Below, piece by piece: positions 21,808 to 25,969 of a DNA stretch of 64,000 bases (its first letter is position 1; every line of letters begins with the position of its first letter). A program made the position numbers and the translations under genes. Location of the stretch: the NCBI GenBank assembly GCA_018242525.1, contig JAFEBS010000076.1:1-64000 (forward strand). The letters are read 5' to 3'. A model generated the notes under the pieces. That model was not told the origin of the DNA, made no database searches, and was given only the letters and a program-made list of their open reading frames with translations. The stretch comes from Planctomycetota bacterium (GTDB lineage: Bacteria > Planctomycetota > Planctomycetia > Planctomycetales > Planctomycetaceae).

Positions 21808-21981
21808 TGGGATCTGGCCGTGGCTCGGTCCATAACGTCCATAACCGTGGCTCCCCAACTTAAAAAAAGACGATCGCCCTGCGATGGCATGCCGGGGGTA
21901 TTGATGCGATGGCATGCTGGCGTGATACTGAGCCCGACAGGGCGCTTTCCAGGAGTGGAATCGAATTCGAAGGCCTCAACG

Positions 21982-23598
21982 ATGTGCATTTTCATTTGCA
22001 AGTTCTGGCGATGGATACGTCACATGCCGGTTTTCGGTCCGCTCCTGATCATTCTGGGAAACTGCGCGCCCTTGCCTGCCCAGTATGCTCCCGGATCACC
22101 GGAGCCGATTTCCAAGATCCGGGGGGCGTTGTTGTTGCATGGTGGTGGATCGGTGGCCGACAGCGTCCGGGCGGAATTCGTCGAACTTGCTGGGGGAAGC
22201 ACGGCTCGGGTGGTGGTGATCCCCGCAGACGACGCAGACGAACCCGTAAACGCGGATCTGCTGGAGGAGTGGAATCTGTTTGCTCCGTCGACTGTTTCGA
22301 TCCTGGATGTGAAATCACGCGAGGCCGCGCTGCAGCCGCATTCTTCTCTGCCGCTGGCGGATGCGACCGGTGTCTGGCTGTGCGGAAGCAAGTCGGCGCG
22401 CCTCGCTGATCTCTACGCGGACACGCCGCTGGAAGATGCACTGCATGAAGTCATCCACCGCGGAGGCGTCGTGGGCGGCACATCAGCCGGCATCGCGATC
22501 GCCGCCCGAATCATGGTCATTCTGGGCGGGGAACGAAGAGGCTTCGATTTGTTCCCCGGCACGATCATCGACCAGGACGTTTCGACGGGATCTCAGCCAG
22601 ACCGCCTGCAGAAGGCGGTTGGCGCTCACCCGGAGTTGGTGGGATTTGCAATTGATCCCGAGACCGCTCTGATTCTGCGGGGACGAAGCTTGAAGGTCAT
22701 CGGAAAGTCTGAGGTTCTCGTCCGCCTGGCGGCGTCAACTTCACTGCCCGAGCGAGTCGACCGACTGAGTGCGGGGCAGACCGCCGACCTGATCGCTCTC
22801 AGCCGTGCGGCCCAGGCCCGGACGCAACCGCCATTCCCCCCTGCAAAACCGGCCTCGCCCCATGTCGACCATGGCTCGCTGTTCATCGTGGGGGGAGGCA
22901 AACTGCCGCGCGAGTTAGTGGCGCGCTTTATGGAACTGGCGGGCGGCCCCGACTCACCGTTCGTGGTGATCCCCTGCACGGAACAAGAAGTCGTATCGGG
23001 TGACGGATTCATGACGACCTTGCAGAAGATGGGGGCCATGAATGTGACGCTGCTGCATACGAAGGATCGTCAACGGGCAAATCGTGACGAGGAGTTTCTG
23101 GCCCCGCTCAAGACGGCCCGCGGGATCTGGTTTGGCGGCGGTCGACAATGGAATCTGGTCGATTCCTACCAGCACACGCTGGCACACAAGCTGATGCATG
23201 ACGTCGTCGCGCGTGGCGGAGTCATCGGCGGTTCGTCGGCCGGAGCATCGATCCAGGGCGACTTCATGCCCCGGGGAAATCCCCTGGGTAACCTGGACAT
23301 CATGGCCGAGGGTTACGAGCAGGGGTTGGGATTCCTGACCGGCGTCGCGATCGATCAGCACTTTTCGCAACGCCAGCGGTTTGCCGACATGAAGTCGCTG
23401 GTGCGGACCCACCCACAATTGCTGGGCATCGGTATCGACGAATCCACCGCCATCATTGTTCGCCAGCACGAGGCGGAAATCGTTGGCAAGGGGAACGTCG
23501 CGTTCTTTGATTCGAATCGGCTCGATGTGGAATACATTTCCGTCTCGGCTGGTGAACGGTTTGACCTGAACACCCGTCAGGTCATCCTGCGAGAATGA
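21982..23598 (+). CDS. Exported tandem peptidase S51 (cyanophycinase-like) protein
   Basis: A 538-aa protein with an N-terminal hydrophobic leader and two S51 (cyanophycinase/dipeptidase E fold) domains, about 45-285 and 295-538. Both have the nucleophile elbow: GGTSAG with Ser168 and GGSSAG with Ser419. Domain 2 keeps the Asp-x-His block (DQHFSQRQRF, His460). In domain 1 the same place reads DQD (Asp199), so the catalytic His is lost. Domain 2 is therefore probably the active peptidase and domain 1 structural. Possible roles are hydrolysis of cyanophycin or other isoaspartyl peptides. The ATG at 21982 has GAAGG eight bases upstream. Confidence 0.85.
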   Translation: MCIFICKFWRWIRHMPVFGPLLIILGNCAPLPAQYAPGSPEPISKIRGALLLHGGGSVADSVRAEFVELAGGSTARVVVIPADDADEPVNADLLEEWNLFAPSTVSILDVKSREAALQPHSSLPLADATGVWLCGSKSARLADLYADTPLEDALHEVIHRGGVVGGTSAGIAIAARIMVILGGERRGFDLFPGTIIDQDVSTGSQPDRLQKAVGAHPELVGFAIDPETALILRGRSLKVIGKSEVLVRLAASTSLPERVDRLSAGQTADLIALSRAAQARTQPPFPPAKPASPHVDHGSLFIVGGGKLPRELVARFMELAGGPDSPFVVIPCTEQEVVSGDGFMTTLQKMGAMNVTLLHTKDRQRANRDEEFLAPLKTARGIWFGGGRQWNLVDSYQHTLAHKLMHDVVARGGVIGGSSAGASIQGDFMPRGNPLGNLDIMAEGYEQGLGFLTGVAIDQHFSQRQRFADMKSLVRTHPQLLGIGIDESTAIIVRQHEAEIVGKGNVAFFDSNRLDVEYISVSAGERFDLNTRQVILRE

Positions 23599-23731: not shown

Positions 23732-23751
23732 ATATTCGAATATTCGCATAT
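23732..23751. promoter_or_regulatory. Candidate ArsR-family operator
   Basis: ATATTCGAATATTCGCATAT is an imperfect palindrome (reverse complement ATATGCGAATATTCGAATAT, two mismatched positions). It is AT-rich in a GC-rich genome and lies about 50 bases before the ArsR-like gene. This is the size and symmetry expected for an ArsR/SmtB dimer site. It overlaps a weak TTGTTA...TATTGT promoter-like pair, which would allow autorepression (inference). Confidence 0.55.
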
Positions 23752-23798
23752 TGTTGATCTTGGAGCGTTCGTGCGACTCGATCGACAGGGGCTGACGC

Positions 23799-24152
23799 GT
23801 GCAAAACAGTCTTCGGCAATTCAAAGCGGGCATCTTTCGAGCGCTGGCACATCCGTCACGAATCGCGATCATCGAATTGCTGCGAGATGAGGGAGAAATC
23901 CCGGTTTCCAAACTATACGCACGGTTGGAATTAGAACAGGCCAACGCTTCTCAGCATCTGGCCGTTCTGCGTTCCAAACATCTGGTCATCGCGAGAAGAA
24001 GCGGTAATCAGGTTCTTTACTCTCTGCGCGATCGGATCCTTGGAACAGTTCTTGACCTGATGCGTGAGTACTTTCATGCGCACTTGGAAGAGTCGCTGTC
24101 GTTGCTTGAAGACCTGCGAACGGATGTACCCAAAAAACGCAAGACTCCTTGA
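23799..24152 (+). CDS. ArsR-family winged-helix transcriptional regulator
   Basis: A 117-aa single-domain regulator. The winged-helix region FKAGIFRALAHPSRIAIIELL, then VSKLYARLELEQANASQHLAVLRS (recognition helix) and ARRSGNQVLYSLRD (wing), match ArsR family proteins. The metal-binding ELCVCDL motif of SmtB/ArsR is replaced by GEIPVSKLYARL and there are no Cys residues, so a classical thiol metal sensor is unlikely. It starts with GTG. It lies 14 bases before the SbtA-like transporter on the same strand, so it most likely controls that gene and itself. Confidence 0.9.
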   Translation: MQNSLRQFKAGIFRALAHPSRIAIIELLRDEGEIPVSKLYARLELEQANASQHLAVLRSKHLVIARRSGNQVLYSLRDRILGTVLDLMREYFHAHLEESLSLLEDLRTDVPKKRKTP

Positions 24153-24166
24153 GAGGTGACTTCACC

Positions 24167-25969
24167 ATGAGACTTCCCAGCTTGAAAACGTCACGTACCC
24201 GTCACTCCGCGACCGGGGTCTGGACGCGACGCATCTCGTTCGCAGCCTGTTTCGGATTGATCGCGTTGTCAATCTTCGACCTGTTTGCAGCAGGCGCTCC
24301 CTCCGAGAAGAAATTGAAGGGAGGCTCGCTGAACATCGTTGCCGTCGATGCGGGCAAGCCGAAGTTGACGGTCACCGATGGTGAGAACCAACGGATGTAC
24401 AAGCTGACCGCCGAGACCAAAATCAGGCTCAATGGGGCTCCTGCCGCGGTTGACGACATCGTTTCGGGCGATGCCGTGGTTTTTGAAATCGACGATCACA
24501 ATCGGGTGCTCAGCGTCGAGGCCACCCGCATTCAGTCCGGCATCGTCATGGGCATCGTCGGTCGAGCGGTCGAAACCACAACCGATTTTACCGACAAGCA
24601 TGTCGTTGATCTGGCCGAAGACGTTGAGGTGATCTTGAACGGCGCGAAGTCGCAAGTCTCGGATTTGCAGAGGGGTGATCGCGTAAAGATTTCTCCCAAT
24701 GCTGCTGGCCTGGCCCAAAAAATCGTCGTCAGCCGGCGCAGTCTTGTGGCGGAGTTCTGGGATAACTTTCGTCACAATCTATTCAAGCCACTGTTGCTGT
24801 TTTTCTATATGGGATTCATCGTCCCCTTGCTGAAAATCGATTTCGAGTTCCCACATGTCATTTACCAGGGACTGACCATTTACCTGCTGATTTCCATCGG
24901 TTGGCATGGAGGTGAAGAACTGGCCGAACTCTCGGGAGGTGTGCTGCAGCAGGCGTTGATGTTCATGATCGTCGGCTTCTGCACAAACTTCGTCATCGGA
25001 ATCGCGGCTTACGGAATCCTGCGCAACTTCATTCCCAAAATGCGGCGTATCGATTCCGCCACGGTCGCCGCGTATTACGGTTCCGATTCCGCAGGGACGT
25101 TCGTGACGTGTCTGGGTGTGCTGGCGGCGGCTGGGATCGCTTATGCCCCCTATATGCCCGTCATGCTGGCGATCATGGAGATTCCGGGGTGTCTGGTGGG
25201 ATTGTGGCTCGTGTCACGACTGCGAGGTACCGGAATGGATGCGCTGGGGAATATGCCGGACGAAATCGGATACAACGCGGCGGCGAAGTCTCCTCTGGTG
25301 GCTGAAGTTGACATCGCCGAACACCATGGGCACAAGACGGCCGAGGAAAAGGCCGTTGAACAAGAAGCGCGCATGGCGCTGGAGAACAAGGAAGACGAAG
25401 ACGAAGTTAATGTTCCCCACAAGCCACCGGGGATCTTCAGCGCGGAACTGTTGCGCGAAGTCTTTCTGAATCCTGGTTTGTTTCTGCTGTTCGGGGGGAT
25501 CATCGTCGGCTTCGCCAGTCGCCTGCAGGGTCATAAAGTCACGGACGCCGACGACAGTCTGTTTGTCACTTTGTTTCAGGGAATGCTCTGCCTGTTTCTG
25601 CTGGAGATGGGAATGACCGCCTCCAGGCGCTTGATGGACCTGAAGACCGCGGGCTGGCGATTCATCGTATTTGGGCTGGTCGCCCCCAACTTGTTCGCGT
25701 CGCTCGGAATCTGCGTGGCACACGGATTCGCCATGGCAACCGGGACTCCCTTGCAGCTTGGTACGTATGCTCTGTTTGCGGTTCTGTGCGGGGCCGCATC
25801 GTACATCGCCGTCCCCGCCATCCAGCGACTTGCGATTCCCGAGGCGAGCCCGACACTGCCATTGGCCGCATCTCTGGGTCTGACCTTCTCTTACAATGTC
25901 ACCGTCGGCATCCCCATTTACATGATTATCGCCCAGTCGATGATCATGGCGTTTCCTGTTGCACGCTAG
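24167..25969 (+). CDS. SbtA-family sodium-dependent bicarbonate transporter with added N-terminal domain
   Basis: The C-terminal 430 residues match SbtA (Sbt_1, formerly DUF897): FFYMGFIVPLLKIDFEFPH, VIYQGLTIYLLISIG, AAYYGSDSAGTFVTC, YMPVMLAIMEIPG, GMLCLFLLEMGMTASRRL, AASYIAVPAIQRLAIPEASP and YNVTVGIPIYMIIAQS. Cyanobacterial SbtA is about 370 aa; this protein is 600. The extra part is a signal-like helix (about 25-45) and a roughly 130-residue domain with two similar halves. Each half has a KIRLNGAPAAVDDIVSGD / VEVILNGAKSQVSDLQRGD block, resembling small beta-barrel DUF5666-type modules. The central cytoplasmic loop is acidic (ENKEDEDEVN). ATG 24167 follows GAGAGGTG. No SbtB-like PII gene is adjacent; an ArsR regulator takes its place. 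Substrate is inferred from family. Confidence 0.88.
   Translation: MRLPSLKTSRTRHSATGVWTRRISFAACFGLIALSIFDLFAAGAPSEKKLKGGSLNIVAVDAGKPKLTVTDGENQRMYKLTAETKIRLNGAPAAVDDIVSGDAVVFEIDDHNRVLSVEATRIQSGIVMGIVGRAVETTTDFTDKHVVDLAEDVEVILNGAKSQVSDLQRGDRVKISPNAAGLAQKIVVSRRSLVAEFWDNFRHNLFKPLLLFFYMGFIVPLLKIDFEFPHVIYQGLTIYLLISIGWHGGEELAELSGGVLQQALMFMIVGFCTNFVIGIAAYGILRNFIPKMRRIDSATVAAYYGSDSAGTFVTCLGVLAAAGIAYAPYMPVMLAIMEIPGCLVGLWLVSRLRGTGMDALGNMPDEIGYNAAAKSPLVAEVDIAEHHGHKTAEEKAVEQEARMALENKEDEDEVNVPHKPPGIFSAELLREVFLNPGLFLLFGGIIVGFASRLQGHKVTDADDSLFVTLFQGMLCLFLLEMGMTASRRLMDLKTAGWRFIVFGLVAPNLFASLGICVAHGFAMATGTPLQLGTYALFAVLCGAASYIAVPAIQRLAIPEASPTLPLAASLGLTFSYNVTVGIPIYMIIAQSMIMAFPVAR

Follow-up and report, generated by a model that had tools for sequence, protein, structure and literature searches.

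Why should a gene for an SbtA-type transporter with an additional exported domain stand behind an ArsR-type regulator gene, with no sbtB beside it? The question arises from a 64,000-nucleotide stretch of planctomycete DNA (the window); the genome that carries the genes is 8.45 Mb in 99 contigs, with the two genes on contig C73. The ArsR family is known chiefly for sensing metals and thiols, and outside autotrophs little is known about how transcription of inorganic-carbon uptake genes is controlled. We think it fairly probable that the two genes form a self-regulated ion-uptake operon, in which ArsR acts on a palindrome and the second gene encodes an SbtA-type importer with periplasmic barrels.

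The SbtA-type protein and its exported extension

The sbtA fusion gene (24167 to 25969, + strand) encodes a protein of 600 residues that matches Pfam Sbt_1 at 5e-96 over residues 208-590. Its orthologues in genomes G140 (L049) and G058 (L050) are full length and 73% and 63% identical, respectively. Residues 194-600 (24746 to 25966, + strand) make up a core of ten helices with the 5+5 fold of SbtA. In phmmer, residues 194-592 matched Synechocystis SbtA (7cye) at 4e-15, and the best Foldseek matches of the model were SbtA structures (7egl, E 5e-13, TM 0.81 on the target). The assignment of the core to SbtA in the first-pass annotation is therefore upheld.

The same annotation gave about 170 extra N-terminal residues. 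The extension is present, but its length is about 193 residues, of which about 45 are a signal region and 148 follow it. Residues 1-45 (24167 to 24301, + strand) form a signal-peptide or signal-anchor region with a hydrophobic helix at 17-38 in the model, and are poorly conserved, as is typical of signal regions. Two repeats predicted to be exported follow, residues 52-123 (24320 to 24535, + strand) and 124-192 (24536 to 24742, + strand). Both carry the pattern LNGAxxxVxD-hydrophobic-xxGD, and they are 22% identical to each other. When repeat 1 was compared with repeat 2, hhalign gave 97% with a score of 57; the highest score in 60 column shuffles was 18.6, and the reversed profile scored 12.4. 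This agrees with the original description of a signal-like helix and two similar halves.

Pfam, NCBIfam, and PDB sequence searches matched the extension to nothing above any cut-off. As the full-length AlphaFold2 model was poor over the extension (pLDDT mostly <60), the fold of the repeats was judged from a single-repeat model alone (mean pLDDT 80.6), which has five strands in OB order, with a short helical turn separating strand 3 from strand 4. Fold matches of the repeat were weak, the best being an S-layer self-assembly domain (9fs9, E 3e-3, TM 0.64-0.69), followed by OB proteins among others. The model predicts that the repeats are small OB-like barrels. CusF came up repeatedly in sequence comparisons, but only weakly (best single member at E 0.0034, below cut-offs). 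The copper ligands of CusF-type proteins are Met, His, and Trp residues, and no such ligand is conserved among the repeats.

The N-termini of TM2 in SbtA are intracellular (PMC8352866), which places the SbtA N-terminus outside, and both termini seem to be in the periplasm (PMC4735556). An outward domain after a signal helix fits this topology whether the helix is cleaved or uncleaved. Under the assumed SbtA topology the predicted inside loops contain 18 Lys/Arg residues and the predicted outside loops three, with eight of the 18 falling in the long, acidic TM5-6 loop. Homology to SbtA and the positive-inside charges thus support the periplasmic domain first proposed, and the repeats are predicted to lie on the periplasmic side, directly before TM1.

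The dN/dS of the extension is 0.28-0.29 versus G140 (0.29 for repeat 2) and 0.54-0.59 versus G058, about 7-10 times that of the core (0.03-0.07). Because the frame and the repeats are kept in the orthologues at these dN/dS values, we take the extension to be real and translated; by this measure it is under purifying selection and more loosely constrained than the core.

A scan of a collection of genome contigs with the single protein found nothing, and an alignment of the three orthologues found 22 loci. SbtA proteins of this type occur in about 33 of the 170 genomes of the order (our count, E <1e-60), but the two-repeat extension was found in only three of these ~33: the window genome, G140, and G058. 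In Isosphaeraceae and relatives, a signal peptide and a single domain precede the SbtA core (L051, L053, L054, L056, L058, L068, and L069). This single domain matches other planctomycete copies at 96%, versus 7% and 6% for repeats 1 and 2. Two other homologues (L059 and L061) have a signal-like helix and a Ser-rich linker with no recognisable domain before TM1.

The three two-domain SbtA proteins form one clade (99/96). Placing all extended SbtA proteins in one clade without losses was rejected (AU p 0.002), whereas one origin of the extension with later losses was not (AU p 0.14). Since the single clade is rejected and the loss model kept, it is possible on these trees that the extension was gained more than once. 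Mycobacterium talmoniae and M. fragae have SbtA proteins of the same type (L060, L062, L064, L065, and L066; 58-62% identical), which are nested among planctomycete sequences in the tree and were likely acquired by horizontal transfer.

The domain is not confined to this protein. Besides the single copy on Isosphaeraceae SbtA, the module occurs on further exported proteins of planctomycetes. Copies were seen in a kinase-caspase protein, a PQQ-like protein, and a BON protein, and 27 of the 392 genomes searched in the phylum have the module. By its distribution among sequences the repeat is a shuffled, mostly exported planctomycete module. One protein (L037, 1977-4778, in G075) consists of a Ser/Thr kinase, several OB-like repeats of the same type, and then a caspase-like domain.

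It is quite conceivable, therefore, that the barrels are a generic envelope module of planctomycetes that serves as anchor or spacer and leaves transport unaffected. The spread of the module over these proteins and genomes, the high dN/dS of the extension relative to the core, and the S-layer domain as top fold match, weak as it is, all agree with such a role. However, purifying selection is still present on the extension, and SbtA proteins with exported barrels in front fall into two separate clades (with the p of 0.14 for one origin plus losses).

Substrate and partner genes

SbtA is reported to contact bicarbonate through Ser114, Tyr140, Ser324, and Ser327 (PMC8352866). Two of the four are kept in the window protein. 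By the phmmer alignment, the equivalent of Ser114 is Ser308 in TM4 (25088 to 25090, + strand), which is invariant in 21 relatives, and that of Ser324 is Ser545 in TM9 (25799 to 25801, + strand). Tyr140 is replaced by Leu334 and Ser327 by Ala548. Given these two substitutions, we infer bicarbonate as the substrate from family and context.

No PII-like sbtB gene was found beside the window sbtA. The absence of SbtB noted in the first-pass annotation thus stands for the locus but not for the genome, which elsewhere encodes a canonical SbtA beside a PII-like gene (L004/L040). Nor does it extend to all orthologues, as the G058 gene is followed directly by a PII-like gene, with no ArsR of the present clade in its vicinity. 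Many unextended SbtA relatives also have a PII gene. The survey therefore sets the loci of the window and G140, with arsR and no PII gene, apart from others that have a PII gene and no arsR. Linkage to ArsR is not inherent to extended SbtA, since one of the three orthologues (G058) has a PII gene instead.

The genome also contains three more SbtA genes and three DabA genes. On its contig C81 (L048, 5987-14729) a SulP-like gene lies upstream of dabA on the same strand and adjoins two-component system genes; a SulP-like/dabA set resembling it occurs in G076 near arsR genes. The only RuBisCO match in the genome is weak (64.9 bits; L129, 1147-2742, on contig C41). Read by eye, it has His in place of the metal-binding Glu of the KDDE motif and a cupin-like C-terminal part, and looks like a RuBisCO-like protein. 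With a match this weak there is no obvious need for carbon fixation, and the likely use of bicarbonate would be in anaplerotic carboxylation or in keeping pH/Na+ balance.

The changes at Tyr140 and Ser327 could instead mean that the transporter carries another small anion, such as formate or another monocarboxylate, and that the barrels are unrelated to bicarbonate. In the Shewanella Sbt homologue SO_3758 the substitution A269T, at the position of SbtA Ser323, confers formate tolerance (PMC12093963). We consider such a substrate unlikely, as the Ser114 and Ser324 equivalents are kept and close relatives of the adjacent regulator adjoin DabA and SulP/BicA-like genes, for which the common substrate is inorganic carbon.

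The regulator, its palindrome, and its relatives

The arsR gene (23799 to 24152, + strand, GTG start) encodes a winged-helix protein of 117 residues that matches the ArsR/SmtB profiles of Pfam (HTH_20/HTH_5) and NCBIfam (HTH_metalloreg, 83 bits versus a cut-off of 55), all above cut-off. Its stop codon (24150-24152) is separated from the sbtA ATG by 14 bases, and the protein is free of Cys, just as the first reading of the locus had it. The G140 orthologue is 74% identical and also precedes sbtA. No Cys is conserved across the ArsR clade to which these proteins belong. In ArsR/SmtB sensors the alpha-5 metal-ligand motif is DxH...HxxE/H; His95 in the C-terminal helix is invariant but does not form this pattern.

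The probable ArsR operator is a 20-base inverted repeat, ATATTCGAATATTCGCATAT (23732 to 23751, without strand), with 9 of 10 pairs matched, that ends 47 bases before the arsR start. It is one of five such 20-mers (9/10 pairs) within the 64 kb and the most AT-rich of the five. In G140, GTATTCGACAATTCGAATAT lies at the matching distance before arsR (48 versus 47 bases) and a second site, ATATGCGAATGTTCGAATAT, is present in the same intergenic region. The AT-rich palindrome noticed at first sight has thus become a candidate operator kept 47-48 bases before arsR, and sequence and conservation indicate a palindromic operator at the regulator's own promoter, a trait of ArsR/SmtB proteins. The site is unique in its own 8.45 Mb genome at up to three mismatches, and the ArsR there therefore probably controls its own operon alone. 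Scans for sigma-70 promoters and terminators gave signals no better than shuffles. An open reading frame of 592 residues just upstream of the operator (21820-23598) contains two S51 stretches and encodes a protein that resembles cyanophycinase (TIGR02069, 231 bits).

We inspected 12 ArsR relatives in 11 genomes, counting that of the window. Eleven of the 12 adjoin SbtA, DabA(B), SulP, or one subunit of a cation/proton antiporter, so that the regulator's homologues are not tied to unrelated genes, as the first-pass annotation had allowed they might be. The neighbour is sbtA in the window genome and G140, divergent dabA with dabB in G140, and divergent dabA in G142. It is sulP within one unit in G135, where sulP is the first gene, and in G365 (outside the order), where arsR comes first and the genes abut. 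G076 has two arsR genes within 12 kb of a sulP-dabA cluster, and G092, G093, G095, and G116 have a lone Nuo/Mrp-type antiporter subunit. The G078 gene is at a contig edge and its neighbour is not clear. The clade is apparently associated more widely with inorganic-carbon and ion uptake, judging by these gene neighbourhoods. Note that the G140 dabA-dabB pair is divergent from arsR-sbtA (L035, 1140-4274; L099, 663-5274), and that a second perfect palindrome lies about 700 bases upstream of dabA.

Of the 11 order-level arsR genes, 9 have a site within three mismatches of ATATKCGANNNNTCGMATAT at 30-65 bases upstream. Both exceptions are second genes of units: in G135 a perfect site lies 81-100 bases before sulP, the first gene, and for G076b the site of the unit stands before the first arsR. 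Among random 250-base segments from the same loci 2.9% reach such a site, a figure inflated by true sites. Outside the order, G365 has the palindrome at one mismatch.

In the 170 genomes the palindrome pattern with at most one mismatch occurs at 36 places versus one for the reversed control (our count). Many of the 36 are sites of other ArsR subfamilies beside cysteine desulfurase or rhodanese genes, and the palindrome was rejected as an exclusive operator of this clade. As other subfamilies share it, the site marks a type of DNA binding and not a signal. The sets beside cysteine-desulfurase-like genes (L102, L107, L111, L112, L116, L121, and L122) and rhodanese-like genes (L103, L104, and L106) are candidates for a second planctomycete regulon, one linked to sulfur.

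These sulfur-linked sites, together with ArsR/SmtB membership, would agree with a stress operon whose ArsR senses redox state, a metal, or reactive sulfur. We regard this as distinctly doubtful, since the window ArsR has no Cys, none is conserved in the clade, and the sulfur-linked proteins are distant (phmmer ~1e-10, where members of the clade reach 1e-31 or better).

That the antiporter next to the distant ArsR relatives is a DabB was considered and rejected, both for its 20% identity over partial length and because no DabA was found in those genomes. The shared theme could therefore be Na+/H+ balance instead of carbon. With that proviso, we advance only tentatively the broader idea that the Cys-less planctomycete ArsR clade is a dedicated regulator of inorganic-carbon (or Na+/H+/pH) uptake that would act on SbtA, DAB, and SulP interchangeably via ATATTCGAnnnnTCGAATAT, with promoter control and the tandem barrel replacing SbtB at this locus.

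A probable self-regulated uptake operon and known systems

In the operon that we favor, ArsR would bind the palindrome before its own start codon and keep the operon off until it is released by a signal within the cell that is linked to a shortage of inorganic carbon or to pH/ion balance. The second gene would then provide a paralogous SbtA-type transporter which, from its family, is most likely a Na+-coupled bicarbonate importer. Its exported N-terminus is predicted, from sequence and model with topology by homology, to hold a tandem pair of OB-like barrels at the periplasmic surface. These probably serve as a periplasmic platform that assembles, anchors, or modulates the trimer, and they may stand in for, or add to, the control that SbtB exerts from the cytoplasm. 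A role in gating or sensing the substrate, as the first-pass annotation proposed, is speculative. That the extension is untranslated and its repeat fortuitous is highly improbable: paralogues in this genome and the order do start just before TM1, but the open frame, signal region, and repeats are kept in three species with the low dN/dS versus G140, the repeat score far exceeds those of shuffles, and the G140 sbtA start overlaps the arsR stop codon.

In the titles, abstracts, and passages of the open-access literature (subscription journals lay outside the search) we found no description of SbtA or DabA with ArsR, or of SbtA with an N-terminal extension, in keeping with the novelty first claimed. 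Within that literature, an SbtA that bears a doubled exported barrel and belongs to an operon probably under ArsR control is a new form of a known transporter. If the ArsR clade senses carbon status, the family would gain a ligand of a new kind, and the palindrome offers a sequence-level route to the clade's targets. The known regulator of the transporter works from inside, whereas the barrels would form an accessory domain that faces outward.

Cyanobacterial SbtA (Slr1512, TC 2.A.83; 7cye and 7egl) shares with the window protein the Sbt_1 profile, the 5+5 transmembrane fold, Ser114/Ser324, and an outside N-terminus. In contrast, the window protein has the two exported OB-like repeats, has Leu and Ala in place of Tyr140 and Ser327, and is encoded next to arsR and not sbtB. 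The SbtA proteins of Isosphaeraceae (Singulisphaera, Aquisphaera, and Paludisphaera; L054, L058, and L056) are of the same type (55-57% identity) and likewise have a signal peptide and an exported small beta domain before TM1. However, they have one domain, linked to the window repeats via intermediates only, and the flanks fetched show no arsR of this clade. The repeats resemble the OB-fold periplasmic proteins of the CusF/SilF type (PF11604) in predicted strand order and weak profile similarity, but have no conserved copper site, fall below every cut-off, are duplicated, and are fused to a transporter. Like ArsR/SmtB regulators (NF033788), the window ArsR is a winged-helix protein with an imperfect palindromic operator before its own gene, but it has no Cys, and its clade is linked to inorganic-carbon/ion transporters rather than metal efflux. 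Finally, the DAB (DabA-DabB) and SulP/BicA-like transporters are proteins unrelated to SbtA whose genes, in relatives, adjoin arsR genes of this clade and their palindrome, whereas the DAB/SulP genes of the window genome lie on other contigs and are without the palindrome at up to three mismatches.
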